Source of the DNA: an uncultured Candidatus Nitrosopumilus sp.
GTDB lineage: Archaea; Thermoproteota; Nitrososphaeria; Nitrososphaerales; Nitrosopumilaceae
Assembly: GCA_951812645.1 (NCBI GenBank)
Contig: CATOSM010000001.1
Location: forward strand, 1,157,560-1,221,559
Direction of reading: 5' to 3'
DNA length: 64,000 nucleotides
A program made the translations under genes and the position numbers. The first letter of the stretch is position 1, and every line of letters begins with the position of its first letter. The notes under the pieces are model-generated. The model worked only from the letters and a program-made list of their open reading frames with translations, ran no database searches and was not told the DNA's origin. Below, piece after piece: positions 24,549-43,740 of this stretch.

Positions 24549-25524
24549 GCGTAAGATCAATCATCGCCTTCAGATGAAACACACAGAATGGATCATGGTA
24601 ACTACAGGTAGGGCGATCATGAGATCGTATTATTACCACATCTATGCTTGTTTGTTGCAACATACAACTTATCTCAAAACCCTCCAATACACCATGATGC
24701 ATGCCAAGTAGACAAATCCCAGATAGCTATCACATTTCTTTTTGTATCTGATTCCTGCTCTGTGAAAACCGTTCTTTAGCCAGCCAAAGAACCTCTCTAC
24801 AATACACCTGGCTGAATTGTACTTCTTGTATGGTTTGGTTTCTAATGATTTGCCGCTGTTTCTAAACGGAATGCATGCAGTCAGATTTCTGTTTTTCAAA
24901 TAATCTCTGGTAGCGTTACTGTCGTATCCCCTATCTGCATAAACTGCAGCAGTTTCTTTAATGGCGCCATCGTCTACAAATTCTGAAATGTTTTCTATGG
25001 CATCAATTAATTTGGCACTGTCATGAACATTTCCAGGACCAGTTGTGATTGAGATTGGCAATCCGTTGCTCTCTACAGCAACATGGATTTTTGTGCCTGA
25101 AATTCTTTCGAGTCCATCAAACCCAATCATATCGCCCCTTTTTTGTCAGTAATTGGTGAGGAACCAACTGGTATCCTTTGCAGGCTGATTTTGTCTTGCC
25201 TGTGTGCAGATTTTATCAGTTCAGACAGAATCCTCTTCCAGACTCCTCTTTTCTGCAGATCCTTAACCCTCTGTGTGCTAATGATTAAGAGCCGTGCCTC
25301 GCAGGCAGGTCAATCCACCTGCAACCAGTACAAACATGATTGCATTGATTGTGGTTCTGTCGTCACTTCCTGGCCTTCCGGTTTTTGCAGGCTTTGGCAG
25401 ATGGGATGCAACTGTGTTCCATTGAATGTCTGACATTTCTTTGTGAATAATGAAGGATGCATCAGCAGAGTCATCGTTAGATCCCGATCATCGTGAATTA
25501 TTTACAAAATGATCGGTCTTAGGA
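24549..25524 (-). mobile_element. Degenerate IS5-family insertion sequence
   Basis: A ~976-bp element carries a frameshifted IS5-type transposase on the - strand. Its ends match imperfectly as inverted repeats: GTAAGATCAATCAT (from 24551, reading inward) and CTAAGACCGATCAT (complement of 25509-25522), 11 of 14 identical. The right end also resembles the outer sequence of the relic at 47.3 kb. The element sits between the SDH protease relic and a 5'-truncated ORF. Exact ends and target duplication were not resolved. Confidence 0.7.
24669..25436 (-). pseudogene. IS5-family transposase, frameshifted
   Basis: The N-terminal frame (MSDIQWNTVASHLPKP, GRPGSDDRTTINAIMFVL) shifts after the GG codons to CRWIDLPARHGS, then to KDLQKRGVWKRILSELIKS and SLQRIPVGSSPITDKKG, and again to the long intact C-terminal frame (24669-25130) with the DDE-type segments VAVESNGLPIS, YADRGYDS and CIVERFFGWLKNGFHR. 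The parts in order match IS5/IS1031 transposases. At least three frameshifts mean it cannot transpose itself. Related shorter relics lie at 47.4, 49.8 and 50.0 kb. Confidence 0.85.
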
Positions 25525-27129: not shown

Positions 27130-27216
27130 ATAATAAGATTATTCAACATAATGAAAAATAAGATGAGAAACTGGTACCGAGATGACTCCTCCGTTTCTCA
27201 TCTAACTATGGCCTGT
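27130..27216 (-). ncRNA. Candidate small RNA or leader with 10-bp hairpin
   Basis: On the - strand, downstream of a palindrome (27254-27274) and the TATA-like TTTTTATC (27246-27239), a transcript would start near 27215. It would contain a perfect 10-bp stem, GATGAGAAAC pairing with GTTTCTCATC (27162-27171 and 27193-27202), with a 21-nt loop, followed by the T-rich TTATTTTT. No ORF is seen. It could be an independent small RNA, a terminator-like hairpin, or the 5' leader of the rhomboid mRNA. The stem sequences resemble but do not prove C/D-type boxes. Confidence 0.35.
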
Positions 27217-27253
27217 ATGAGATAACTAGAACATTGTAGATAAAAACAAAATT

Positions 27254-27274
27254 GGTACATTCTCAAAATGTACT
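27254..27274 (-). promoter_or_regulatory. 21-nt palindromic site A
   Basis: Two 8-nt arms, GGTACATT and AATGTACT, are separated by 5 nt; 7 of 8 arm positions pair. On the - strand the proximal edge is 7 nt from TTTTTATC, the same spacing as at sites B, C and D (29797, 35410, 37631). This suggests a regulator-binding site next to the promoter. Confidence 0.6.
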
Positions 27275-27318
27275 GGTTTGATCAAAGAAATCATTTTGGA
27301 ATTATAGGATATGAAAAA

Positions 27319-27766
27319 TTAATCAAAATCATATTTTTTAATTAATTTTGCAATCAATAAATCATTTTTAATATGAAATATTTTCTTAGAATCACTGATT
27401 TTTTGAAATATTAAATTAGAGTCAAGCAGTTTTGTAATATTTTGGGATGTAGTTGAAGGGGATTTTTTTATTTTTTCTTTAATTTGGTGAAATTCTAGAT
27501 CTTTATTTTTAATTAATTCCAAAATTATTAGTCTAGCTGTATCTTGCCTTAAGCATTGTATGATTTTTATCTCTTCAGGATTAATTTGTGGAGAGAGATA
27601 TCTGGTTTTTTTTTCACGTTGAATTTGTATAATGCCTCTAATTCTAGTTTATTGATGTAATGGGCTAAAGTACCATTCTTATTCCTGATTTTCTAATTAT
27701 TTCACAAAAATGAATTCCATAATTTTTATAAATTAAATCAGTTAAGATGCCAATTCTATTAGCCAC
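27319..27766 (-). pseudogene. Broken two-winged-helix regulator
   Basis: Traced from a GTG near 27766, the frames read ILTDLIYKNYGIHFCEIIRK, then KNGTLAHYINKLE, then EKKTRYLSPQINPEEIKIIQ and LEFHQIKEKIKKSPSTTSQN. The order and residues follow the intact regulator at 36707-37207 (KNGVLSHYLGKLE, LEFSELVKEAKKSPSTVS). At least two frameshifts separate the pieces. The surviving last frame (27319-27522) encodes most of the second winged helix and could be made as a short protein, but the full regulator is lost. Confidence 0.75.
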
Positions 27767-27839
27767 ATAACAAATCTTGAAAAAAAATTCAAAAACAAAC
27801 TGGCTTATCTATGAAATGCACTGGTACGTTAACAAAATA

Positions 27840-29756
27840 TCAAATGTCAATAATGCCATTTGTGATCATCCATTCAATACCTTTTAGAAAATCTGAATCA
27901 GGCAAAAGACCCTCAGACCACCATGCTGCGTTACTGCGTAACCAATCAGGAATTGTACTTTCTGAAGTCTCAGGAGCGGATAGGTTTTCTGGGACATCTA
28001 TCAAATTTTCTTTAATCAGATATTCTAATCCATTAGCAAAGTCTGCATCAGATAATTGACCCTCAGACCACCATGCTGCGTTGTTCTTAACCCAACTTGG
28101 AATTGATGTGATATGTGCCAATTCTTCAGCATCAGCTGTTTCCGATGAAACATTGATGATATTTTGTTTGACTAGATATTCAATTCCCTCTGCAAAAGCA
28201 GGATCACTAATTTCTCCATTAGACCACCATGCTGCGCTGTTCTTAACCCAACTTGGAATATCTATATCTGCTGAGACTGGTGTAATTGTGGAAGTGGTTC
28301 CAACAAACAGTTCAGGGTCATTTGGAGTTTGTGTAACACCAGTATCTACCACATATGCTCTAGCAGTAATTTCTAATGTATCACTTGTAGCATATGGTCT
28401 TGGTAGTGTAAGGTCTTCATATTCAACGTAAATTGTATCGCCATTTGAGACTCTTAATTGATCTTGATCATCAGATGAATCATCAGAAGTCATATAGAAT
28501 CTTCCTGGAAGATAGTTGATGTAGTGTGGATGTTCATATCCTTCAAAGTAGCTTGGAACATTACCTCTATCAAAAGCACTGTGTCTGGATACGACTTGTT
28601 CCAAAATGGCTTCTGGTGCTACTTGGAATGAAAAGTTGACCCCTTGACCTTGATCAAATATGTTTGAAATTACAATTTTTGCTGAACCTCTTTGATCAAA
28701 TCGGATTGGTTCTACCCCCTGTCCATCAACCGCGTATCTATCAGTTCTGCTTTCTACTAGTTCACCGTTAAGATAGATATCCACATCATATGAGAGACCC
28801 GTTTCATGGATATCAGTCAGGCCATCATGTACCATCAAGTTTAGATCATAATCTTGATCTACACCAATAACACCACCTGGCTCCCACCACAAGTAGGTCT
28901 TCCATTCTCTATCAGGAGTGTATTTTGTTAGTGAACTTGCTGCGGGTGAAGTCAGGTGAACGCTTGTAAGTTCATTTTGAATTTTTGCATGTTCCATTGC
29001 CTTTACAAATTGAACGCCTACATTGATTCCAGCAATATCAGAATCAGAATAAACTCTAACATAATTTGTGAAAAATTCTCCATGATGTTTCCATAGATCA
29101 GTGTCTCGGATAAAGAAAGTTACTTCTTCATTAAAGTCATAAGCGTCCTTGTGGAATTCCACTTGACCAATTTGCCAAGTGTAAGATGCAGATCTTTGCA
29201 TAACTTCATCTTCATTAAATTCCCATGCAACAGTAATTCTTCCATCCTGTGTATCTGATGCAATCATAACTGCACGATCGTGTGTTGAAAGATCAAGTCC
29301 GTCTCCATCCATAGTCATGCCAGGAACTGTTACTCTAGTAAGATAAGTATCATGTACAACATAGCCTCTTTGACCAGTCATTTTTACTACGCCCATAAAC
29401 ACTCCAGTGTCAGGTCCAGTTTCTGAAAATTCTACATTATCAACACGTGCTACATTTGTGTATACCGTTATAGGGTTACTAGCATCTCCAATTTTTTCTA
29501 TATTGGCTTCATCTTCATTCCAACCTGGTGCATAAATCAATACGTTGATTCTATCAGTCCATCCAATTCCTTCATATCGCTCATGACAATCTTGTAACAG
29601 GAAAGTTTCATTTGCACAGAATTTCATAATAATTCCAGAAGATTTCTTTACATTGGTAAAACCAAGTTCAGCAAAGGCCTCAGACGGTGTTGAAATAGGA
29701 ATAGCTAGAGCGCCAGCAAGCACGAAAACTGCCGCTAGTTGTAAGATTCTATTCAT
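27840..29756 (-). CDS. Secreted protein with three C-terminal W-rich repeats
   Basis: The 638-residue protein has a clear signal peptide (hydrophobic LAAVFVLAGALAIPI, cut near SEAFA) and a large beta-rich domain of unknown family. Three tandem ~37-residue modules close it (residues ~520-638), each of the form IPxWhKxNAAWWSxG, acidic turn, then GhEYLIKxxIIxV. Such modules recur in four other proteins of this region. A role at the cell surface is inferred. Upstream, a 21-nt palindrome (29797-29817) and TATA-like CTTTTATC (29790-29783) mark its own promoter. Confidence 0.8.
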   Translation of the reverse strand: MNRILQLAAVFVLAGALAIPISTPSEAFAELGFTNVKKSSGIIMKFCANETFLLQDCHERYEGIGWTDRINVLIYAPGWNEDEANIEKIGDASNPITVYTNVARVDNVEFSETGPDTGVFMGVVKMTGQRGYVVHDTYLTRVTVPGMTMDGDGLDLSTHDRAVMIASDTQDGRITVAWEFNEDEVMQRSASYTWQIGQVEFHKDAYDFNEEVTFFIRDTDLWKHHGEFFTNYVRVYSDSDIAGINVGVQFVKAMEHAKIQNELTSVHLTSPAASSLTKYTPDREWKTYLWWEPGGVIGVDQDYDLNLMVHDGLTDIHETGLSYDVDIYLNGELVESRTDRYAVDGQGVEPIRFDQRGSAKIVISNIFDQGQGVNFSFQVAPEAILEQVVSRHSAFDRGNVPSYFEGYEHPHYINYLPGRFYMTSDDSSDDQDQLRVSNGDTIYVEYEDLTLPRPYATSDTLEITARAYVVDTGVTQTPNDPELFVGTTSTITPVSADIDIPSWVKNSAAWWSNGEISDPAFAEGIEYLVKQNIINVSSETADAEELAHITSIPSWVKNNAAWWSEGQLSDADFANGLEYLIKENLIDVPENLSAPETSESTIPDWLRSNAAWWSEGLLPDSDFLKGIEWMITNGIIDI

Positions 29757-29796
29757 GTATCAGGTAACCTAAATGGGATTTTGATAAAAGGCCAAT

Positions 29797-29817
29797 GGTT
29801 CATTTGAGAAATGTACC
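29797..29817 (-). promoter_or_regulatory. 21-nt palindromic site B
   Basis: The arms GGTTCATT and AATGTACC are separated by TGAGA; 7 of 8 arm pairs match. On the - strand it ends 7 nt before CTTTTATC, the likely TATA box of the secreted W-repeat protein starting at 29756. It also touches the end of the upstream operon. Confidence 0.7.
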
Positions 29818-29819
29818 AA

Positions 29820-31175
29820 TTATTCATATTGTGAAATCATTCTAGTAATTTTGCAAGTACTGAAATTTTCATTCCATTTTGAATGGCCTACAAATCTTTT
29901 TGATTCAAATTCTTGTAGATCATAAAAAATTGCGGTAGTTTTTCCCATGGTATTTCCTTGATTATCCAAAAATGATACGACCAGATCAATTTGATCACGT
30001 TTAATGTTGTCATTGCGATATTGGCCAGAAATAGTCACCAAACCAAAATCATCTCTAACACAGGAGAAATTTCTTACTCCTTGAGTAATGGAAGTTTCAG
30101 GGTCAATGGGTTTTGGATTTAATGCAATATTATTTTCTGATGGCCCGTAGAGTTCATCTAGTAGATTTGACTGTAATACACTATGCAGAGGATAGTTCAC
30201 GCTATGATTCTTTTCATTGCTGATTTTTTTCAAAATTTCTCCTAAGAATCTACTAGTTGGTTCAGTTTTGTCTAAAACAAGTTCATCTGCGTCATAATCA
30301 AAGTGTTCTCCATGTTGATCAAATATGATCACTTGCACTATCATGTTATCATAGATACAAGAAGTAATTGCGCCATCTGCCGTATAATTAAACATACATT
30401 CAGAATTTTCATTAGGGTTTCCCGTCAAGTATGCAGAATCAAATATTTTTTGTTTGTCTGTACCTTCAAAAGAATCCCAATAAGTATCCAAATCATTTTG
30501 ATCATTAAATTCAGATATTCGCATAGTCAGTGTAGGAATTTTAAACTTGTAAAAAATTGGATCGTAAACTCTTGTAATATCTGTAAACATGATTTTTACA
30601 GAATCTACAATCCCTTCCTTTTCTTCAAGCTCATATTCAGTAGAAAAAATTCTCCAAGTAGTTTCTTTAGTGATATTCAAAACTTCTTTGTTATCCAACA
30701 AAAATCTCTCAAGACTATTTTCAAAAGTTTCATCATTTGAAAAAAGACTTTTCTCTGGAGTATGTTCCAAATATCCTGTTTCTCTGAGATAGTGTATGGT
30801 TCGAAGGAATTGCTGATCAGTGATTTTACCTTCAACCCACCATTCTGCTCTATCTTTAACCCAGTGAGGGGTTAATTCTGAAGTGCTTTTGCCATATAGT
30901 TCAGGCAAGTCTTCAATTACGATCTTTGCAGTATCTTTCATAATTTCTTCAGATTCGATTTCATTAGGCAAGATCTTGTTCTCAAGCACATTTTCAATTA
31001 ATGCTAAGAATTCAGCATCAGATGACTCACCACTCACCCAAATAGAAGTGGATAATTTTACCCAGTCAGGAAATATTTTTTCTTCTTCACTTTGTGCAAA
31101 AGATTGGCTTTGAAAAGATACCAAAATCATACAAAATACAATTCCCAGAAATGGAATAATTTTGAAATTATTCAT
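29820..31175 (-). CDS. Secreted protein with N-terminal W-rich modules
   Basis: The 451-residue product has a signal peptide (IIPFLGIVFCMILVSFQSQS, cut after SFA) followed at once by two degenerate W-rich modules (FPDWVKLSTSIWVSG and LTPHWVKDRAEWWVEG), so the module is N-terminal here, not C-terminal as in its neighbours. The rest (residues ~150-451) is not recognised; two cysteines and a C-terminal beta-rich stretch are visible. It is the last gene of the MoxR operon, one base after the DUF4129-like gene, and its stop abuts site B. Confidence 0.75.
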   Translation of the reverse strand: MNNFKIIPFLGIVFCMILVSFQSQSFAQSEEEKIFPDWVKLSTSIWVSGESSDAEFLALIENVLENKILPNEIESEEIMKDTAKIVIEDLPELYGKSTSELTPHWVKDRAEWWVEGKITDQQFLRTIHYLRETGYLEHTPEKSLFSNDETFENSLERFLLDNKEVLNITKETTWRIFSTEYELEEKEGIVDSVKIMFTDITRVYDPIFYKFKIPTLTMRISEFNDQNDLDTYWDSFEGTDKQKIFDSAYLTGNPNENSECMFNYTADGAITSCIYDNMIVQVIIFDQHGEHFDYDADELVLDKTEPTSRFLGEILKKISNEKNHSVNYPLHSVLQSNLLDELYGPSENNIALNPKPIDPETSITQGVRNFSCVRDDFGLVTISGQYRNDNIKRDQIDLVVSFLDNQGNTMGKTTAIFYDLQEFESKRFVGHSKWNENFSTCKITRMISQYE

Positions 31176-31796
31176 CTATGAAATCTCCTTAGTAAATTTG
31201 GATAATGCGTTATTGAAATCATCATCATTTGAATCATATTTTGCATATTCTACACTTCCGCAAAGTGAGAGCCAATCCCTAACACGATTGTATTCACCAC
31301 GTTTTAATTTATTCAGTATGGTTAGCAACTCCAAGTTGGTCATTTCTTTGTAAATTCCCAGATTTTGAGAATAATAGTATCTTATTGCCTGACTAAGAAC
31401 CTCACAAGCTTCTTTTTTGTTATTGCTGTCATACATTGCTTTAGATTTAGCAAGCATGTCTTGTGTTAATTGACGGAAATCAATTTGAGGTTCTGAAACC
31501 TGTATTGGAATTTCCGCAGGTTTTCTTTCAAAGAACTTTTGGCGCATGAAATATGCAAATACTATCAATCCAGCCAAAGTAGTAACTGCCAATATGGATG
31601 ATAGATATTCTACATTCTCTGAAGGCGGAGTCAATTGCATTGGGTTGCTCTGTATTGAATCTCGAATATGTCTTGTATTTTCAAATTTAGACTGTTCAAA
31701 TTTGAAATTATCAAACATGTTTCTAGAATCCTGTTGTTGCGAAATTCCTATTTCGGGATTATTCAAAGCACCATGTCGTAAGTTTTCGCCAGACAT
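31176..31796 (-). CDS. One-helix membrane protein, DUF4129-like C-terminus
   Basis: The 206-residue protein has one membrane helix (SSILAVTTLAGLIVFAYFM, residues ~66-84) with a short basic inside segment, then a C-terminal helical domain with ACEVLSQAIRYYYSQNLG and MTNLELLTIL resembling the DUF4129 domain found in MoxR/DUF58 operons. No signal-peptide cleavage site is evident. It is probably a small membrane subunit of the MoxR-VWA system encoded upstream. Confidence 0.65.
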   Translation of the reverse strand: MSGENLRHGALNNPEIGISQQQDSRNMFDNFKFEQSKFENTRHIRDSIQSNPMQLTPPSENVEYLSSILAVTTLAGLIVFAYFMRQKFFERKPAEIPIQVSEPQIDFRQLTQDMLAKSKAMYDSNNKKEACEVLSQAIRYYYSQNLGIYKEMTNLELLTILNKLKRGEYNRVRDWLSLCGSVEYAKYDSNDDDFNNALSKFTKEIS

Positions 31797-31823
31797 AATG
31801 TCATTGAAAAGATCTGATGATTG

Positions 31824-32411
31824 CTATGTGAGTGCATTCATCATTCCCTCTTGAATTTGTTCTTTGGTGAGTATCAAATGATTTGGAGAGTACTCTCTAA
31901 GATCAAAAGAGCCATCACCCGATTTTATGGCATCTTCCATGAGTTGACGCCCTAGCGTGAATTCTTTTGGCGAGAATATATCATTAGGAATTGCTGCTAA
32001 ATTATCCATGGAATAGCCTCGTTCAAGCACGAAAAGTTCCAAATTTGAGTTTGGATTATAATCATAGGATCTTCCCTGAATGATATACCTGCTATCACCA
32101 ATTGGATCTAACAATGCCTCGGCTACCTCAATATAGCCATCTGAAAATCTATCATAATATTTTATTTTGTGTTTAAAACTATCTTCTCTAAGGTCTCTTT
32201 GTTCTACCAACATTCCATTCAAAAGTTGACCTTCTTCTGATTCAATAGTGATTTTATAATCACCAATAGAGTATCCATTGTTGGTTATGAATTTATCATA
32301 GATTGGCTTGGTTGGATCTTCCTTCCTGACAAGTCCGTCATAGCTTGAAACAGTGTGTGATTCCTGTGGAGTAATTTCTTGATTAATTTGTCCTTCAATT
32401 AGCCAATCCAT
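31824..32411 (-). CDS. Secreted operon protein, N-terminus uncertain
   Basis: The frame from ATG 32411 gives 195 residues (MDWLIEGQINQEITPQES...). In the same frame the sequence upstream reads FFFVSCFFTTPAYADDLDIE, a hydrophobic stretch ending in a typical AYA cleavage site, but no ATG, GTG or TTG occurs between it and a TAA near 32500. Two runs of seven T lie there, so either an ATT/ATA start, a slip in a homopolymer, or a sequencing error is involved. The mature domain is unrecognised. It sits between VWA and DUF4129-like genes of the same operon. Confidence 0.6.
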   Translation of the reverse strand: MDWLIEGQINQEITPQESHTVSSYDGLVRKEDPTKPIYDKFITNNGYSIGDYKITIESEEGQLLNGMLVEQRDLREDSFKHKIKYYDRFSDGYIEVAEALLDPIGDSRYIIQGRSYDYNPNSNLELFVLERGYSMDNLAAIPNDIFSPKEFTLGRQLMEDAIKSGDGSFDLREYSPNHLILTKEQIQEGMMNALT

Positions 32412-32519
32412 TTCAATATCTAAGTCATCTGCATATGCAGGTGTTGTAAAAAAACAAGAGACAAAGAAAAAAATATTATGCCGTGATTTATTGGAAAAAA
32501 ATTAAAATTTTGTGATGTC

Positions 32520-33470
32520 TTATGCGACAATTCTATATCTCCCATAAATTGCGTATGCGTCTATCAATAGCAATACAATTGCAGCAGCTATAAACCAATC
32601 TCGAAGAGTTGAATATTCTATTTCATAAGTAAGATTAGAACGCAAGATTAGAAGTATTTCATCAAGTGTTTGTTCATCAAGAGATTTGAAATAATCACCG
32701 CCGGTCTCCTGAGAAATTAAAATAAGAGTATCTTCATCTAGTTCTGCAAATTGAGGTTCGCCATAGACATCATTTCTTAAAAAAACATGCTCAATAGAGC
32801 CTAAACCAATTGTATGAATTTGTACATTGTTGATCTTTGCGTATTGGATAGCTTCTTGTGGAGTAAGTAATCCAGAATTATGAACGCCATCACTGAGTAA
32901 AATTACAATCCCCCGTTTGTCGGGAATTGATGAGGCCATATCAATTCCTAATGCAAGTCCATCACCAATAGCGGTGGCACCTTGACCTTGTTGAATGGAT
33001 GAAATTGCGTTAGTGAGTTTTTCTTTATCTGGTGAAAGATAAGATACTGTGGCAGCCCCTGATTCAAAAAGAACTATGCCTACATTATTTTGAGAATCAA
33101 TTTTTGTGACCAAGTCACTGATTGCTATTTTGGCAGCATCTAGGCGTGTAGGTGCGTAATCTGTGGCTGCCATACTCTCAGAACCATCTAACACTATACT
33201 CAGATTGATGCCTTTTTCAGCAGACAATGTTGGTATTTGAGGATTGGCAAGACCAACAATTGCCAAAGCCAGTATGCCCATCATTAATGCAAAGGGTAAA
33301 TGTTTTCGGGAAAAATTTTTCCCCATGACAGATTTTTTAACAATTTTCAATGAACTGAATTTTAGAATAGATTCTTTTTTCTCAGTATTGTATTTTGAAT
33401 ATAAAATATACAGACCAGGAATCAAGAGAAGTAAAAATAATGCATAAAGAAATTCAAATTGTATTTCCAT
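32520..33470 (-). CDS. VWA-domain membrane protein (BatA-like)
   Basis: The 316-residue protein has an N-terminal membrane helix (FLYALFLLLLIPGLYILYS), a second one near residue 65, a von Willebrand factor A domain with the MIDAS motif VLDGSESMA and ILLSDGVHNSG, and a C-terminal helix. This is the BatA/aerotolerance layout found downstream of MoxR and DUF58 genes. The domain would face outside and bind a divalent metal and a protein partner. It begins where DUF58 ends, with no gap. Confidence 0.88.
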   Translation of the reverse strand: MEIQFEFLYALFLLLLIPGLYILYSKYNTEKKESILKFSSLKIVKKSVMGKNFSRKHLPFALMMGILALAIVGLANPQIPTLSAEKGINLSIVLDGSESMAATDYAPTRLDAAKIAISDLVTKIDSQNNVGIVLFESGAATVSYLSPDKEKLTNAISSIQQGQGATAIGDGLALGIDMASSIPDKRGIVILLSDGVHNSGLLTPQEAIQYAKINNVQIHTIGLGSIEHVFLRNDVYGEPQFAELDEDTLILISQETGGDYFKSLDEQTLDEILLILRSNLTYEIEYSTLRDWFIAAAIVLLLIDAYAIYGRYRIVA

Positions 33471-34349
33471 TTAGCGTCTACCTCTAGTTTTTGTTCGAAT
33501 ATATCGATTAAATGCAATGCCAAATGATTCTTCATTTGATAAATTCAAAAAATCTATTCCTAGTTTTTTCATTTCATATTCATTTTGTTCTTTATTCTTT
33601 TTCATTAGATTCGAGTAATCATCTTGGAATTTCTCATCAGAAGTATTGACAAGAATTTGTTCTCCTGATTCTGCATCTTCTAAATATACACGACCAATCT
33701 CAGGAATTTTGAGTTCATTGGCATCTGAAATATTTAGCAAAACGATTTGATGCTTATGCCTTAGTAATTTTAGTGGATTAACAAATGTATCTGAAATAAA
33801 ATCTGAAATAATGAAAATTACACTTTTTTGTTTGAGATTTTTTTGTAATTCAGAAAGGGATTTGAAAATATCAGTTTGTCTGTTTTTTGGCTCATATTTT
33901 ATTAATGCATTGAGAATTTCCATCGTGTGTTTTTTACCTTTTTTAGCTTGGATGAATTTTTCAAGAGAATTTGAAAACAATCCCATACCGACCTTGTCAT
34001 TATTTTTTAATGCTGAAAGCATTAGCGATGCTGCGACTTCAAATCCCAATTCTTTTTTACTTTTTACAAAACCAAAATCATTAGATGCAGACAGGTCAAT
34101 TACGACATAAACACTGAGCTCATTTTCCTCGACAAACTCTTTAACAAAAAGATCATTGTAACGTGCTGAAACATTCCAATCCATTCTTCTTGCATCATCG
34201 CCTGCAGTGTATTGACGAACTTCAGAAAATTCTATGCCTCCGCCTCGAAATCGGGATCTGTAGCCACCGGATTCCATCCCCTCAACCAGATTTTTCGTCT
34301 TAATCTCCAGATTCTTTACCTGTTTCAAAAGTTCAGAAAGCTGAGTCAT
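33471..34349 (-). CDS. DUF58 family protein of the MoxR system
   Basis: The 292-residue protein has the DUF58 signature FSEVRQYTAGDDARRMDWNV near residue 40, then KEFVEENELSVYVVIDLSAS, a VWA-like fold start. It lacks membrane helices. DUF58 proteins accompany MoxR AAA+ ATPases and VWA proteins and are thought to help assemble or activate partner complexes. It lies one base after moxR and directly before the VWA gene, so tight cotranslation is expected. Confidence 0.9.
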   Translation of the reverse strand: MTQLSELLKQVKNLEIKTKNLVEGMESGGYRSRFRGGGIEFSEVRQYTAGDDARRMDWNVSARYNDLFVKEFVEENELSVYVVIDLSASNDFGFVKSKKELGFEVAASLMLSALKNNDKVGMGLFSNSLEKFIQAKKGKKHTMEILNALIKYEPKNRQTDIFKSLSELQKNLKQKSVIFIISDFISDTFVNPLKLLRHKHQIVLLNISDANELKIPEIGRVYLEDAESGEQILVNTSDEKFQDDYSNLMKKNKEQNEYEMKKLGIDFLNLSNEESFGIAFNRYIRTKTRGRR

Positions 34350-34350
34350 T

Positions 34351-35373
34351 TTACGGCGGACTGATTTTTTCTAAAACAAAATCTATTACTTTGTCAGAAC
34401 TAATTCCATTGGCTTCGGTTTCAAAAGTGAGAGTTATTCTATGACGTAAAACTTCATGAGCAATTTCTTTGACATCTTCAGGAATAATGAATCCCCTTCC
34501 ATTTAGTAATGCGTTGGCTTTTGCAGCCCGCATTAGCCATATTGATGCTCTAGGGGATGCGCCAAACTCGATCATGCCATCTAGATCCAAACCATAGTCT
34601 TTTGGATTTCGTGTTGCGTTAACAATGTCTGCAATGTATTCCGTAATTACTTTGTCTGCATAAATTTCTTCGTTAAAATTTTGAATTTCAATGATTTTTG
34701 TTGGATCAATTAATGGTTTTATAGAAACAGGATTACTCAAAGAGTTTTTCTCAATAATTTGCAATTCCTCTTCTTTAAACGGATAATCAATCAGGATTTT
34801 CAGTGCAAATCTGTCTACCTGAGCTTCTGGAAGTTTGTATGTTCCCTCATTTTCTATTGGGTTTTGAGTGGCCAAAACAAGAAACGGTTTCTTTAATTCA
34901 TATGTATCACCGTGAATACTGACGTTTTTTTCTTGCATTGCCTCAAGTAATGCAGATTGGACCTTTGGAGGAGCACGGTTTACTTCATCAGCTAAGACAA
35001 AATTATTAAAAATAGGTCCTTTATGAGTTACAAATGAACTTGAGGTATTCCTGTAGATTTTTGTGCCTAGAATATCTGCAGGAAGTAAATCGGGAGTGAA
35101 TTGAATTCTCACATGATCAACATTAAAGATTTGAGCCATAGTTTTTGCCATCAGCGTTTTTGCTAAACCAGGCACACTCTCAAGTAAAATGTGGCCATCA
35201 GAAATTATTGCAATGAGAATTTTCCTTAACGGATCCTCTTGACCAATAATGACCTTATGGGATTCATCAAAAACAGCATGCAGTGTTTTAGAATGTTCTT
35301 CAGCTTTTTCATTAAGGACCTTGATGTCTTGATCAGAAATTGAATAATTCACATTGTTTTCTCTAAATCCCAT
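34351..35373 (-). CDS. moxR: MoxR-type AAA+ ATPase
   Basis: The protein is 340 residues from the ATG at 35373 (MGFRENN...). It has Walker A ESVPGLAKT, Walker B FVLADEVNRAP, the sensor region LATQNPIENEGTY and the arginine-rich VDRFALKILIDYP of MoxR chaperones. The longer frame from 35406 is less likely, because the TATA-like CTATTAATTT (35403-35394) lies ~25 nt before 35373, and a 21-nt palindrome lies 7 nt further upstream. It leads a six-gene - strand unit (moxR, DUF58, VWA, 195-aa, DUF4129-like, W-repeat protein). Confidence 0.93.
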   Translation of the reverse strand: MGFRENNVNYSISDQDIKVLNEKAEEHSKTLHAVFDESHKVIIGQEDPLRKILIAIISDGHILLESVPGLAKTLMAKTMAQIFNVDHVRIQFTPDLLPADILGTKIYRNTSSSFVTHKGPIFNNFVLADEVNRAPPKVQSALLEAMQEKNVSIHGDTYELKKPFLVLATQNPIENEGTYKLPEAQVDRFALKILIDYPFKEEELQIIEKNSLSNPVSIKPLIDPTKIIEIQNFNEEIYADKVITEYIADIVNATRNPKDYGLDLDGMIEFGASPRASIWLMRAAKANALLNGRGFIIPEDVKEIAHEVLRHRITLTFETEANGISSDKVIDFVLEKISPP

Positions 35374-35409
35374 ATCCTTAGAGATCAGTGGAGAAATTAA
35401 TAGCAATCC

Positions 35410-35430
35410 GGTTCATTCGAAGGATGTACC
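35410..35430 (-). promoter_or_regulatory. 21-nt palindromic site C, MoxR operon
   Basis: The + strand arms are GGTTCATT and GATGTACC with a 5-nt spacer (CGAAG); 6 of 8 pair. Read on the - strand, the edge is 7 nt from CTATTAATTT, the likely TATA box of moxR. The position just upstream of the TATA/BRE suggests an activator or an architectural regulator more than a start-site repressor. Confidence 0.7.
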
Positions 35431-35487
35431 AATTATTGTAGGATGAGAATGGAAATTGTCGCAATTGTGATTTTAATTATTTTGAAA

Positions 35488-36777
35488 TTAAACTGTGATT
35501 ATTTTTCGTTTTACCAAGTTCTCAATGATATTAAGAAAGTCATCATCAGAAATTTTTTCTTCGTACCACCAACCTGCAGAAATTTTCACCCATGATGGAA
35601 TATTCCATTGTGATTGGTTTGTGGTGTCACGTTCAGGTACATCGACAATCTGTTTTTCAAATAGGAAATCTATCCCTTCAAGAAATTCTGAATCAGAAAT
35701 TCGGTTCGTTACCCACCAGTTTGCGTTGGTTTTGATCCATTGGGGAATTTTTGGCAGTTCAGGAGGTAAACCTTTGTCAAAACCAGAAATTTTGATTGTT
35801 CCTTGAGATGTTGGGCCCACATCAAAAGCTACATGCCAAAATCCCATATCGTCTATACTTTGAATAGATTCTATGGGTTCATCATTTAACGTAACAGCAA
35901 ATTTTTCATTGCCTGAAATAGGGGAAAATTCGAAGTTGGCATACGTCTCTAAAGGATAACTGTTGTATCCTCTGATGCTCAATGTAGTTCCCGCCTCATC
36001 AAATTCTGCAGCAGAATACCAAGCACCTGAATCATATCTAAAGTCAAAATCACCACCATTTTTCTTTGCGGTAATAGGAATTACAGTCGTATCAACAGGC
36101 GCAAAGCAACTATAGTAAAAGACTTCATCTGTAATAGATGGATCAGGATACATTGTAAAATCCAGTATCTGTCCCGGTTCAATTTTTTCAATAAATTCTA
36201 TGTTTTGTCCAATGTCTAAGACTCTATCATATCCATGAATTACTGCAAAAATTTTAGGGTTGTGGATAGTTTGTTCCCCAGTGTTTTGAATTCTCCCAGT
36301 AAGATGACCATCATCATGCTTTATCAGAGTCTTATCATAAAGAACAGATATGGGTATTGTATCTTGAATTGTTCTTTCAAAGGATAATTCTACTGGAAGT
36401 AGCTCAACATAATTTGAAACATTTGGGAATTTGGTTTTAAATGGAACTTCTGCACCAGGGCCCAAAGGAACGTGATTGATTGTTTGAGATTGTATTGTAT
36501 GATTATCCATTACAGATACAGTAACTGTTGGAACAATGGCATAATCATTTGTGTTTTTTACATTTCCAACAACCGTATAAATTCCAGCAGAATCAAAATA
36601 TCCAACATATTCGTCAGCAGGAACATAAACCTCTGCAAAGGACAAGTCTGGAATTAGCAGCAATGATAGTCCCAATAGCAATAACGAAGGTTTAGGACAG
36701 AATAACCTAGAAGGAATTGATGATATCTTCGAATCCAGATGTCGGCTTTTCAAGCAGGCTTGGCCTATAGTCTTCAA
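35488..36777 (-). CDS. Secreted protein with two C-terminal W-rich modules
   Basis: The 429-residue product has a long basic n-region and hydrophobic core (PSLLLLGLSLLLIPDLSF, cut near SFA), then a beta-rich domain with recurring tandem strands similar to FxxxT/GxVxNTxxY adhesion-like folds. Two W-rich modules close it (IPQWIKTNANWWVTN and IPSWVKISAGWWYEE). The ATG at 36777 lies inside the end of the upstream HTH gene (71-nt overlap), and no later ATG fits the signal peptide. Its function is not known; it probably acts at the surface. Confidence 0.78.
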   Translation of the reverse strand: MKTIGQACLKSRHLDSKISSIPSRLFCPKPSLLLLGLSLLLIPDLSFAEVYVPADEYVGYFDSAGIYTVVGNVKNTNDYAIVPTVTVSVMDNHTIQSQTINHVPLGPGAEVPFKTKFPNVSNYVELLPVELSFERTIQDTIPISVLYDKTLIKHDDGHLTGRIQNTGEQTIHNPKIFAVIHGYDRVLDIGQNIEFIEKIEPGQILDFTMYPDPSITDEVFYYSCFAPVDTTVIPITAKKNGGDFDFRYDSGAWYSAAEFDEAGTTLSIRGYNSYPLETYANFEFSPISGNEKFAVTLNDEPIESIQSIDDMGFWHVAFDVGPTSQGTIKISGFDKGLPPELPKIPQWIKTNANWWVTNRISDSEFLEGIDFLFEKQIVDVPERDTTNQSQWNIPSWVKISAGWWYEEKISDDDFLNIIENLVKRKIITV

Positions 36778-37207
36778 TTAATTTACCAATAAGATCTCTT
36801 GCTTTAATATGATATCTTCTTTTGAGTTCCACCAGTCTTATCTCGACTAGTCCATCCTCTACAATTTGAGAAAGATATAATGAAACTGTGGATGGTGATT
36901 TTTTAGCTTCTTTAACTAGTTCTGAGAATTCCAACCCATCATCTTTGATTAATGCAAGCAGTAAGTCGCGTGGAGTTTGCTTACGTAAGGCCTTGATGAC
37001 AACAGATTCTTCTTCAGTAATTTGTGGCGGATAGAATCTTGATTGACGCGGTCCGCGAATTACTTTGATTATGCCATTTTTTTCTAATTTTCCCAGATAA
37101 TGACTTAGAACGCCATTCTTTAATCCAGATGAACGCATAATTTCTCGGAATTGAATTCCGGGATTTTGTTCAATAATTTGTTGTAATTGTGAATCTCTAT
37201 CAGTCAT
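36707..37207 (-). CDS. Two-winged-helix transcriptional regulator
   Basis: The 166-residue protein contains two winged HTH domains. The first, residues ~8-55, has FREIMRSSGLKNGVLSHYL; the second, residues ~80-140, has FSELVKEAKKSPSTVSLYL. Its paralogue at 27319-27766 is broken. It overlaps the membrane protein gene upstream by 8 nt and the secreted W-repeat gene downstream by 71 nt, so the three genes form one unit preceded by palindromic site D. It is the best local candidate to bind the 21-nt palindromes. Confidence 0.85.
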   Translation of the reverse strand: MTDRDSQLQQIIEQNPGIQFREIMRSSGLKNGVLSHYLGKLEKNGIIKVIRGPRQSRFYPPQITEEESVVIKALRKQTPRDLLLALIKDDGLEFSELVKEAKKSPSTVSLYLSQIVEDGLVEIRLVELKRRYHIKARDLIGKLIEDYRPSLLEKPTSGFEDIINSF

Positions 37208-37592
37208 TTCTAAACACTCCTAATGCCAATAATCCTAATGTAATGAATGTCAATAAATGTCCTATCTCACTTAGAGGCATTAATTCAAAGTCAAAAACTG
37301 ATGGCCATGTGGCATCTGCAAGTAATACAATTTCAGCTGCAATGAAATTTGTAAAAGCTATTGCGCTTAGCAAAAGTCGTTTTGTTCTTAATCTATAGTA
37401 TGCAAACCCTGCCAGTACCGAAATAAAGACTGCAAGAGAGATCCCTCCAACATGCAAAAAGATGTGAGCAATATGATAGCCGTGTAGCAAATGAGGGACA
37501 ATTATTGGTAAAGCCAAAATTGCAACAACGCCAGTTATTACAATAGAAAAGAGGGTTGATTTTTTCTCAACTATGCGTTCAGGCCTAAACAA
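37200..37592 (-). CDS. Small membrane protein, four helices
   Basis: The 130-residue protein is mostly hydrophobic with four predicted membrane helices, including VVAILALPIIVPHLLHGYHI and a later helix with GHLLTFITLGLLALGVF. Several histidines lie in or near the helices. The start appears to be TTG at 37592, which agrees with a leaderless transcript from the TTAAATTTAAAA box at 37612-37623. It leads the unit with the HTH regulator, so it could be a sensor for it, but this is inference. Confidence 0.65.
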   Translation of the reverse strand: MFRPERIVEKKSTLFSIVITGVVAILALPIIVPHLLHGYHIAHIFLHVGGISLAVFISVLAGFAYYRLRTKRLLLSAIAFTNFIAAEIVLLADATWPSVFDFELMPLSEIGHLLTFITLGLLALGVFRND

Positions 37593-37630
37593 AGTGATCC
37601 GTGTTATAGTCTTTTAAATTTAAGGGGACT

Positions 37631-37651
37631 GGTTCATTGATCGAATGGATA
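37631..37651 (-). promoter_or_regulatory. 21-nt palindromic site D (half degenerate)
   Basis: The left + strand arm GGTTCATT is intact but the right arm reads AATGGATA instead of AATGWACC. The intact arm is 7 nt from the AT-rich TTAAATTTAAAA box (37623-37612, - strand) before the membrane protein/HTH operon. Same layout as sites A, B and C, weaker sequence. Confidence 0.5.
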
Positions 37652-39441: not shown

Positions 39442-41163
39442 TTATTTAAAAACTTGTGATTGTACTCTCATAATTCCCTCTTTAATCAAATATTGGATGC
39501 CCTGTATGAAAGAGTCATCATCGATTTGTCCAGCTGCCCACCATTCTGCATTATTTTTAATCCAACCCGGAATATCGCCTGGACCACCACCAGTACCTTG
39601 AGTGGTTGGAGGAATCTTTAGAACGTCCTCTTTAATCAAATATTGGATGCCCTGTATGAAAGAGTCATCATCGATTTGTCCAGCTGCCCACCATTCTGCA
39701 TTATTTTTAATCCAACCCGGAATTGGTGCTTTTTCTACAGCCGGGGGAGTTGTAATTCCAGAACCCGGACCAATTTCAATAATTGCCGAACCTATTCCTG
39801 CATAAGTTGGATCATAATCTAAGCCAGTTCCATATACCCAAACGTCAAGTTGAATTTGTCCTGAAGATGGAACATGGACTTCTTGTATGTCTATTCCTTC
39901 AATAGAGGTCAGTCCAGGAAGCAGAGAATCTTCAGGAGCATATCTAAACAATTCTTGTTGAGAATCATCGATGACTGCATATCCATATCTTACATCTTTG
40001 ATCAAATCTCTATTTTCGTTAAAGAATGTAAATTCAAATGGAACATTTTGATTAGCACCATACTTTCCGTCCCACGAAATATTTACCGTAGCTGGTACCT
40101 GTTGTTCCCAGTTTGTAGCATCTACAAGATAGAATTCAGTAGAACTCTTTTCTGTTTCTGCCAGTGGAACTAATTTTAAGTTCATATTTTTGTTGTCGTA
40201 GTTATCAGGGCCCAAAGATTCATTGATTGATTCTAAATCACTTTTTGATACCAAGAAATGGATCACATTGGTATCATCATATGAGTATGGATCATTTAAC
40301 AGAGCCTTTTGGCTAATTTCTACACCGTTAACATATCCTTTGAATTGTTTTCCTTCAGCATATGGAACAAATGATTTTGGTACTCTAACTTCCTCATGTA
40401 CTACTTGAACTAGATTGACATAGTCTGGACTCCAATCAAATGCCATATCGAAATTAATTGAATTGTCAGATGTGTCGAATTGGAAATTTTCAACTTCGTC
40501 ATAATATGTTTTTACGACTATAGGTACATCAGCATTTGCGGTTTGAATGAAAAAGTCTTGCTCTTGTGCAACACTAACAAAGGTATCATAGGTCAATCTC
40601 TGAGCTAGTACGCTTTTAGGACTAGTGGCAGCCTCAATGTCTACTTTGATGTTGTATAATCCACCCTTATCAAAAATCGGGCCAGTGATTGTAGGTCTAG
40701 CACAGATGTCCAAATTCTCATCAGTACACGCCGCACCTTGAACATACAATGCTCCAGGTGCACTAACATGTTCAGAACCACCATATATCGTGCATTTCCA
40801 AAGTTCAGCCTCATCACAGCCAGGCTCCGGTCTGATTTCTACATCTAATGATCCATCTAAATCATAAAACAAACTTCGTGCAAGCAAGTCTCCACTTCGC
40901 CAAACTTCCACCCTGTAAGTTACTTTTTCCAAAGTGGTATCAGTAAGAGTGTCAAAAAATCTAATTTTCATATTTACATCCTCAATATCATCCATAGTGA
41001 TATCAGAAGGGGACAGATCGGTACGGACGGTAACTTCCATGCCACCAAAGCTAATTGGTTCAGCTTGATCTCCACCAAGTCCATGTGCAAATGCAGTCGG
41101 CAGAATTGCAGGAATCGTGAAAATTCCAATAATTGTAACTAATAAGGCAAACTTGTTGTGCAA
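39442..41163 (-). CDS. Secreted HG-family protein with two identical W modules
   Basis: The 573-residue product has a signal peptide ([17 protein letters not shown]) and a mature start [10 protein letters not shown] shared with its two paralogues, then a beta-rich domain with [24 protein letters not shown] and [12 protein letters not shown]. The last ~100 residues are two W-rich modules, [20 protein letters not shown], identical over 32 residues and over 97 bp of DNA, separated by a Gly/Pro linker. Likely a surface-layer or adhesion protein; the ligand is unknown. A TATA-like TTTAAATATGG (41193-41183) lies ~25 nt upstream of its ATG. Confidence 0.82.
39477..39573 (-). repeat. 97-bp exact direct repeat, copy 1
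   Basis: This segment is identical over 97 bp to 39627-39723, exactly 150 bp (50 codons) away. It encodes the last W-rich module of the secreted protein. Perfect DNA identity, while the modules of other proteins differ, points to a recent duplication or gene conversion. Confidence 0.95.
39627..39723 (-). repeat. 97-bp exact direct repeat, copy 2
   Basis: Second copy of the 97-bp repeat, encoding the first W-rich module in the protein. Both borders change at once to unlike sequence, and the period is a multiple of three, so unequal recombination could add or remove modules in frame. Confidence 0.95.
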
Positions 41164-41275
41164 TACTAAATTTGCACCAATTCCATATTTAAAGATGGTA
41201 CAGCATTTCTATGCGTGAGTTTTTTCATTTAGAAAATAGAGTACAACTTTTATTTCCGATTTTCAAAATAGCAAT

Positions 41276-43041: not shown

Positions 43042-43677
43042 CTATTTTCTTTTCACTAGAGAAATTATTGCCAAGATAATAGCTGCTGCTGCAATTGACA
43101 ATCCAAATATTGCAAAGTCGTAAGCTTGCCCACCATTAGAATCAACTTTGGTTTCGCCTGAATTAATTTTAGAAACATCTTGCTGTAATGATGCAATTGC
43201 CTGTTTTAATGCTCCAATATCAGTGTCACCACCGCCAGAGGTTGGAGGAAAATCCAAAATTGCTGTTGGTTCTACGTCTTCAATAGGTATTTTGATATCA
43301 ACTGGAACCCCGCGAATCTCTCCCTTTAATTCAACCATGTAGCTTCCAGTTTTAGTTGGAATGATAGGCGAGAAGTAATATCCAGGTCTTGGATCAGAAT
43401 TAATGTCAATTCTTTTAGTAGCACCGCCAAACATTACAGTTGCATCGGTACTTTTGAAAACGTTTGTGACACCAGTGTATGTGCCTTCTTTTTCACCTGA
43501 TTCTGTAATCTTCAAAACAAGGTTATTTCGAATTCCTACTACAGGAGGCTCAATTCCCCATCCAGCCTCAATGGCATATTGTTCTACGTGAACTGTAGTA
43601 TGCGCATATGATGGAGCAGTCATTCCAATTGAAAATAATAACGCAATAAAGCCGAAAAATGCTATCTTCACGACCAT
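43042..43677 (-). CDS. Exported membrane-anchored protein, 211 aa
   Basis: From the ATG at 43677 the product starts MVVKIAFFGFIALLFSIG, a signal peptide cut near SYA|HTTVHVEQ, and ends with a membrane helix (FAIFGLSIAAAAIILAIISL) and VKRK. The mature start His-Thr-Thr-Val-His could bind metal. The middle has beta-strand-rich Ig-like sequence (PGYYFSPIIPTKTGSYMVEL). The longer 255-aa frame from 43809 would run across the divergent promoter and is rejected. It diverges from the CopC-CopD gene and may be its partner, possibly in copper handling. Confidence 0.7.
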   Translation of the reverse strand: MVVKIAFFGFIALLFSIGMTAPSYAHTTVHVEQYAIEAGWGIEPPVVGIRNNLVLKITESGEKEGTYTGVTNVFKSTDATVMFGGATKRIDINSDPRPGYYFSPIIPTKTGSYMVELKGEIRGVPVDIKIPIEDVEPTAILDFPPTSGGGDTDIGALKQAIASLQQDVSKINSGETKVDSNGGQAYDFAIFGLSIAAAAIILAIISLVKRK

Positions 43678-43714: not shown

Positions 43715-43740
43715 GGTACAAATTTAGAAGAATGTAAACT
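43715..43740. promoter_or_regulatory. Divergent promoter with loose palindrome
   Basis: The arms GGTACA and TGTAaaC lie in a 26-bp span between two AT-rich boxes: CTTTATGTAA (43702-43711) for the - strand gene and GTTTAAATTG (43741-43750), ~25-30 nt before the ATG at 43773, for the + strand gene. The arms resemble the 21-nt sites A-D but with longer spacing, so the relation is tentative. Confidence 0.4.

Follow-up and report, generated by a model that had tools for sequence, protein, structure and literature searches.

The 64,000-nt stretch of an uncultured Candidatus Nitrosopumilus genome analyzed here (the window) carries one 21-nt palindrome in front of four promoters, which raises the question whether the repeated element is a regulatory site and, if so, which protein reads it. 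Our analysis indicates that the palindrome is probably the operator of a tandem winged-helix protein encoded at 36707-37207, which is paired with a histidine-rich membrane protein and would control a regulon. We located the four palindromes at 27254, 29797, 35410 and 37631 (Table 1), as the preliminary description had placed them, with one, zero, one and three mismatches to the motif, respectively. On the minus strand, 7 nt separate the gene-side edge of each from a TATA-like box, also as claimed. With at most one mismatch allowed, only four sites were found in the 2.2-Mb genome scanned (G000; G and L numbers denote genomes and relatives' loci), and three of them lay inside the 8 kb studied. 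The regulon had been described as local, which held in the main; one more good palindrome was found 337 kb away in the same genome (G000:C1:1530676), facing a well-folding stretch (z -4.5). Contig C1 of G000 shares identical motif matches with C5 or C7. With a listed contamination of 8.79% for this assembly, some of its contigs may be strain duplicates.

In taking the palindrome to be real we give weight to conservation and not to the window or genome counts at three mismatches. At up to three mismatches the window alone gave 4 matches versus 1.7 expected, a weak excess reached by 8 of 100 shuffles, and genome-wide there was none (33 versus 31 for the reversed control). A search with the 36707-37207 regulator provided 31 loci of relatives, 458,737 bases in all and with few exceptions titled Nitrosopumilus or Nitrosopumilaceae, and these contained 41 sites with at most two mismatches, while 40 shuffled-arm palindromes gave a mean of 0.9 and a maximum of 10. 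The motif was present at orthologous promoters and was not equally common in coding DNA, since 36 of the 41 sites were intergenic though open reading frames (ORFs) cover 84.5% of the sequence. Among 44 gene-facing flanks, many of them orthologous and hence not independent, position +1 was A in 98%, and positions +8, +9 and +10 were A or T in 98, 100 and 100%. The full operator thus reads TGGTWCATTN5AATGWACCA, a 23-bp two-fold symmetric site that takes in the A at +1, with TATA at +8, and it was used in both directions at divergent promoters. The flanks and the motif excess in the 31 loci uphold the earlier argument that constant spacing to the TATA box marks a real regulator site, and a fixed spacing upstream of that box is the arrangement expected of an archaeal activator operator. 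Scanning 60 genomes of the genus with GGTWCAN9TGWACC, a survey not centered on the regulator, gave 65 sites in 39 genomes versus 17 for the reversed pattern. Start codons in the relatives' loci often lay at about +35 to +41 from the operator edge, which fits leaderless or nearly leaderless mRNAs.

Judging from sequence comparisons, the most likely binder is the 36707-37207 regulator, a protein of 166 residues with two winged helix-turn-helix domains and no recognised ligand domain. Its N-terminal domain scored above the Pfam cut-offs of HTH_HVO_0163_N, HTH_24 and MarR and its C-terminal domain above that of HTH_5, so that a MarR/ArsR-like winged-helix fold and family profiles were both found. 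Against the NCBIfam equivalog of MsvR (cut-off 220 bits) it reached only 44.1 bits, over one helix-turn-helix. PDB and fold searches returned single winged-helix matches or weak whole-length ones only; the 50 PDB matches listed included no whole-length match and were to single domains, the best with a query TM (template modelling) score of 0.44. The regulator and the membrane protein encoded before it form a conserved gene pair. Six histidines of the membrane protein (H34, H37, H40, H43, H47 and H112) did not vary among six aligned sequences, of which three came from distant pairs. We found 1112 homologues, and the 120 matches listed were all unnamed or 'hypothetical' and without a Pfam domain.

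The regulator's own promoter kept TG[AG]ACCAGT and TTAAAT in all 29 relatives for which the upstream sequence was long enough, and 28 of these also kept the TTCGA core (L022 was excluded for too little upstream sequence, and L046 has only a partial regulator). The distal arm was not kept in these promoters, as in the window. The degenerate arm described earlier at 37631 is thus a conserved feature, an argument for an autoregulatory site of lower affinity.

The palindrome at 27254 had been assigned to a candidate small RNA or a rhomboid leader. The small RNA stands, as a gene of its own (small RNA 1); the rhomboid leader was rejected, since the rhomboid gene has its own conserved promoter GAATAATCTTATTATACAA, present also in species without the RNA. 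In relatives, the operator before a carbon-nitrogen hydrolase gene also faces, on the opposite strand, a second RNA starting with nearly the same RCCATAGT (small RNA 2), and the GAGTCAT loop recurs in some copies. Covariance models of the two RNAs were built from the RNAs and a few flanking bases, with operator and promoter left out. The small RNA 1 model matched in 21 of the 60 genus genomes, and an operator-like site lay at the same distance upstream of 20 of the 21 matches (score at least 12.7). The RNA folded with a z of -3.3, and 98.7% of the stem cells were paired in 23 sequences, with a covariation score and paired cells that exceeded all 500 shuffles. Alignment A4 omits the decayed G053 copy (L130), and a lower E-value cut removed two weak further matches. 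The small RNA 2 model matched in 34 of 60 genus genomes and in 34 of 121 family genomes, in 4 of 22 genera; the covariance-model search did not find this RNA in the window's own genome. Operator-like sites lay upstream of 32 of 34 matches in the genus (score at least 13.3) and of 19 of the 20 matches in other genera whose promoters were read, out of 23 (score at least 10.8). A free alignment of small RNA 2 contained two double-change pairs, reached by 13 of 500 shuffles, and its covariation score was reached by none. Both RNAs thus have a conserved stem with compensatory changes, their own promoter and a U-tract end, as structured small RNA genes do, and are predicted to be transcribed. Membership in an Rfam family was rejected because neither RNA reached a gathering score, and small RNA 1 had no Rfam match at all at its window locus. 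We searched this genome for complements of the small RNA 1 loop with two mismatches and obtained 11 forward and 20 reverse matches (7 and 10 in the control), one being small RNA 1 itself; the nine inspected included no convincing mRNA start. The remnant of a second regulator paralogue adjoins the small RNA 1 operator, and G002 has a longer paralogue in the same cluster and G009 a short fragment. At G000:C1:1530485-1530705 (L004) we noted what may be a third structured RNA, about 140 nt long and with ends that are complementary; G015 and G017 preserve its promoter but not its 3' stem, and we list it tentatively as a candidate.

Regulator and motif occurred together across the 60 genomes. Of the 36 genomes that have a close orthologue of the regulator, 32 contained the motif, versus 7 of the 24 that have none (Fisher test, 3e-6, uncorrected for phylogeny); the corresponding counts were 21 of 36 versus 0 of 24 for small RNA 1 and 26 of 36 versus 8 of 24 for small RNA 2. 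Presence was set at 73% identity or more; the partial matches of G001 and G058 were included, and G014, G029 and G055, with homologues of 52-56%, were counted as lacking it. Among the seven motif-positive genomes without a close orthologue, the matches of G020, G029 and G055 were, by eye, without the ATT/AAT core. The small RNA 2 operator was an exact GGTWCAN9TGWACC in 24 of 25 regulator genomes and in none of five in which the regulator is absent (G012, G031, G045) or broken (G022, G034, with copies 52% identical), where one to three mismatches were found. Matrix scores of these operators agreed with erosion (Mann-Whitney p 0.0009, or 0.004 when G004, G057 and G014 were included; G026, which has masked bases, was excluded). 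Palindromes also adjoined the 56%-identity regulator of G014 and regulators of 53-56% in two further genera (L214, L217). The earlier choice of the 36707-37207 protein as best candidate is thus favored by its own conserved half-site, by co-occurrence and by the erosion of the small RNA 2 operator.

Several observations weigh against this assignment. The motif stood at only two of seven loci of regulators below 60% identity, and other winged-helix genes carry the site in their own promoters (L037, L042, L171). G026, G028, G042 and G056 have the regulator and no exact motif match (three of these four assemblies are at most 80% complete, and the small RNA 2 site of G026 has masked bases), while in G004 and G057, whose assemblies are 81% and 87% complete, the operators are exact and a close regulator is absent. 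G014 keeps only a half-site at small RNA 2 with its 56% homologue, and in G017, which has the regulator, the small RNA 2 promoter is decayed. The co-occurrence tests were all uncorrected for phylogeny, and the scoring matrix was trained partly on regulator-bearing loci and favors such genomes, a bias that the mismatch count avoids. As for the RNAs themselves, the TATA box of small RNA 2 was looser, with A or T at all of +8 to +10 in 16 of 24 copies (one of the 24 read at the wrong site) and TCTTATG or the like in the others. In small RNA 1 the three double-change pairs were reached by 104 of 500 shuffles and come mostly from one clade, in an alignment that had been fitted to the model; when only the first 13 sequences were counted, there was no double change and no excess over shuffles.

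Besides the regulator's own operon with its asymmetric site, the proposed regulon would take in the MoxR operon, secreted proteins of the cell surface and two or more families of small RNA. The regulator would bind the operator as a dimer next to the B recognition element (BRE) and would activate by recruiting transcription factor B (TFB) or the TATA-binding protein (TBP). Provided that the operator assignment is right, we consider activation likely, because the operator abuts the BRE where archaeal activator sites lie and because the target spacers are poor in A, with 0.16 versus 0.29 in 45 other promoters of the same loci (orthologues among them are not independent). Repression by the same protein, with a dimer abutting the BRE that blocks TFB entry and a regulon released on a signal, appears unlikely. 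With full palindromes at one class of promoters and half-sites at the other, repression could be graded, and autoregulatory sites are common for repressors. The operator nevertheless precedes the BRE and TATA box at a near-invariant spacing and does not overlap them, a geometry that suggests activation: archaeal activator sites typically lie upstream of the BRE and repressor sites over or downstream of the promoter (PMC5512572, PMC4158304).

Binding by another winged-helix protein, such as the 131-residue protein of L037 and L042 or the second paralogue of L171, with the 36707-37207 regulator only co-traveling, is distinctly improbable. Those genes do have the operator in their own promoters, but the 36707 orthologue tracks the motif across 60 genomes, in a comparison that covered this orthologue alone among winged-helix genes, and its loss accompanies operator erosion. 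That the small RNA genes are tiny protein genes is more improbable again: a short ORF (MRN.GVI...) can be read in many small RNA 1 copies and one of about 18 codons in several small RNA 2 copies, but the lengths of small RNA 1 loops (13 to 27 nt) do not differ by multiples of three, the reading frame in which AGTCAT is preserved varies (L126, L033, L128, L134), small RNA 2 copies L031 and L151 reach a stop at the second codon, and the stems are conserved in both RNAs. An extended promoter read by an alternative TFB can hardly be credited, as the 7-nt spacing equals the BRE position but a site of 23 bp that has two-fold symmetry and serves both directions where promoters diverge suggests a dimeric regulator, and the element tracks one winged-helix gene (in a comparison limited to that gene).

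Under the preferred assignment of the operator to the 36707-37207 regulator, the target genes fall into recurring kinds. In relatives the sites stood repeatedly before the MoxR operon, the gene of the W-repeat secreted protein, the RNA that lies upstream of rhomboid, a gene for a carbon-nitrogen hydrolase (PF00795) and genes of small secreted proteins, of which one had a CHRD domain above cut-off. The W-repeat protein of the window matched no Pfam family at E 0.001. MoxR probably starts at the ATG at 35373, which would make its mRNA leaderless, rather than at an upstream TTG, and the genes after it in the operon look DUF58- and vWA-like by eye. At L037:8893-9288 and L042:14412-14807 a gene for a 131-residue winged-helix protein is divergent from one for a secreted protein (with BNR repeats in L037), with the operator between them.

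Table 1. Features of the proposed regulon in the window (pLDDT, predicted local distance difference test; spacers are the 7 nt between operator and box)
Feature	Position	Strand	Basis or remarks
Small RNA 1 (predicted, ~60-65 nt)	27154..27218	-	ACAGGCCATAGTTAG, 10-bp stem, GGAGTCAT loop, U-tract end
TATA-like box TTTTTATC	27239..27246	-	Sequence, spacing profile
Operator palindrome, small RNA 1	27254..27274	-	Sequence, conservation; spacer AATTTTG
Remnant of second regulator paralogue, truncated	27331..27639	-	39% identity over residues 44-147; G000:C1:1184890-1185198
Target gene, secreted protein, 638 residues	27840..29756	-	Three W-rich repeats (by eye)
TATA-like box TTTTATCA	29782..29789	-	Sequence
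Operator palindrome, secreted W-repeat protein gene	29797..29817	-	Orthologous sites in L017, L025, L029, L030; L171 by eye; spacer ATTGGCC
Target gene, MoxR-type AAA ATPase, first in operon	34351..35373	-	Pfam AAA_3; ATG at +37 from operator edge
TATA-like box TATTAATT	35395..35402	-	Sequence
Operator palindrome, MoxR operon	35410..35430	-	Orthologous sites in L017, L020, L025, L029, L030; spacer GGATTGC
Third gene of regulator operon, FxLYD / W-repeat secreted protein	35488..36777	-	NF038353, 27.4 bits versus cut-off 23; start uncertain
Tandem winged-helix regulator, proposed operator-binding protein	36707..37207	-	Profiles, predicted structure (pLDDT 87.8)
Membrane protein (by eye), first gene of regulator operon	37200..37592	-	
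TATA-like box TTAAATTT	37616..37623	-	Sequence, conservation
Asymmetric operator, regulator's own operon	37631..37651	-	Proximal arm AATGAACC and core ATTCGA kept, distal GGTWC lost; spacer AGTCCCC
Conserved half-site TTTGTACCA and box ATAAAGATAA	43698..43722	-	Divergent promoter of gene 43042-43677 and CopC-CopD gene

Two looser sites had been proposed as members. The one at 43715 was conserved, as a half-site with only the proximal arm kept: its half-site sequence was found in all 13 relatives with an orthologous start region (a spurious 24%-identity row, L153, was not counted), and an (A/G)TAAAGATAA box follows at the same spacing as at the other sites. The half-site suggested before the gene starting at 41163 was rejected, as the TATA box begins 3-4 nt after TACC, the wrong spacing, and TACC is absent in L167 and L168. 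The core promoter of the 41163 gene, CYRTACCATCTTTAAATATGG (window 41120-41200, minus strand), is conserved in orthologous loci, and its TATA part also in L167 and L168. The gene divergent at 43715 encodes CopC and CopD domains. This location beside the half-site, a cupredoxin match below cut-off (L175) and another by eye (L176) are possible hints of copper; we do not claim a copper link of the regulon. It is doubtful, though conceivable, that the whole is an envelope-stress regulon with small RNA effectors, in which the histidine-rich membrane protein would sense a metal or redox signal and its partner regulator would switch on surface maintenance. The programme would then join the MoxR operon and the CopC-CopD locus with cupredoxin-like proteins, secreted proteins of the W-repeat and CHRD kinds, and the paralogous small RNAs, whose RCCAUAGU heads are common and whose GGAGUCAU loops are shared in part. 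Such a regulon would be like bacterial envelope-stress systems, but built on an archaeal TBP/TFB promoter.

Two further observations concern other parts of the sequence. An ORF on the minus strand at 24669-25130 of the window resembles, by eye, an insertion sequence (IS)-family transposase, and repeated TTTCCGTAACGAAAAAGTTACGGCCCCATTGAAGC units at G000:C1:89271-98750 (L006, L007) resemble, again by eye, an array of clustered regularly interspaced short palindromic repeats (CRISPR).

A literature search of the titles and abstract openings listed, in lists that were partly capped and with most subscription journals and all supplements outside it, turned up no comparable operator, regulon or regulatory small RNA for Nitrosopumilus. 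The finding provides a DNA site, a candidate regulator with its membrane partner, a list of targets and two small RNA families, all testable with one purified protein and RNA-seq data. Among known systems, the sites of EarA, the winged-helix activator of the euryarchaeal archaellum, likewise lie directly upstream of the BRE and TATA box. Its motif, published as A(C/G)(C/G)TACA(T/C) and constant in its distance to the BRE (PMC10665913), resembles the half-site GGTACAT, a likeness of motifs alone. EarA differs in its repeated half-sites and archaellum targets, and it was not listed in the NCBIfam scan of the regulator. TFB-RF1, Ptr2 and the Sulfolobus ara-box activators share the position just upstream of the BRE and are reported to activate through TFB or TBP recruitment (PMC5512572, PMC4158304); they belong to other families, whereas a 23-bp palindrome, two winged helices and no recognised ligand domain were found here. 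HVO_0163-type and MarR/ArsR regulators are close in profile, as the cut-offs passed above indicate, but unlike them the present protein has tandem winged helices within 166 residues and is paired with a histidine-rich membrane protein. ArnR and ArnR1 of Sulfolobus likewise provide helix-turn-helix control of surface-structure genes with a membrane link. ArnR has its own transmembrane part (PMC6396743), while here membrane protein and regulator are separate genes.

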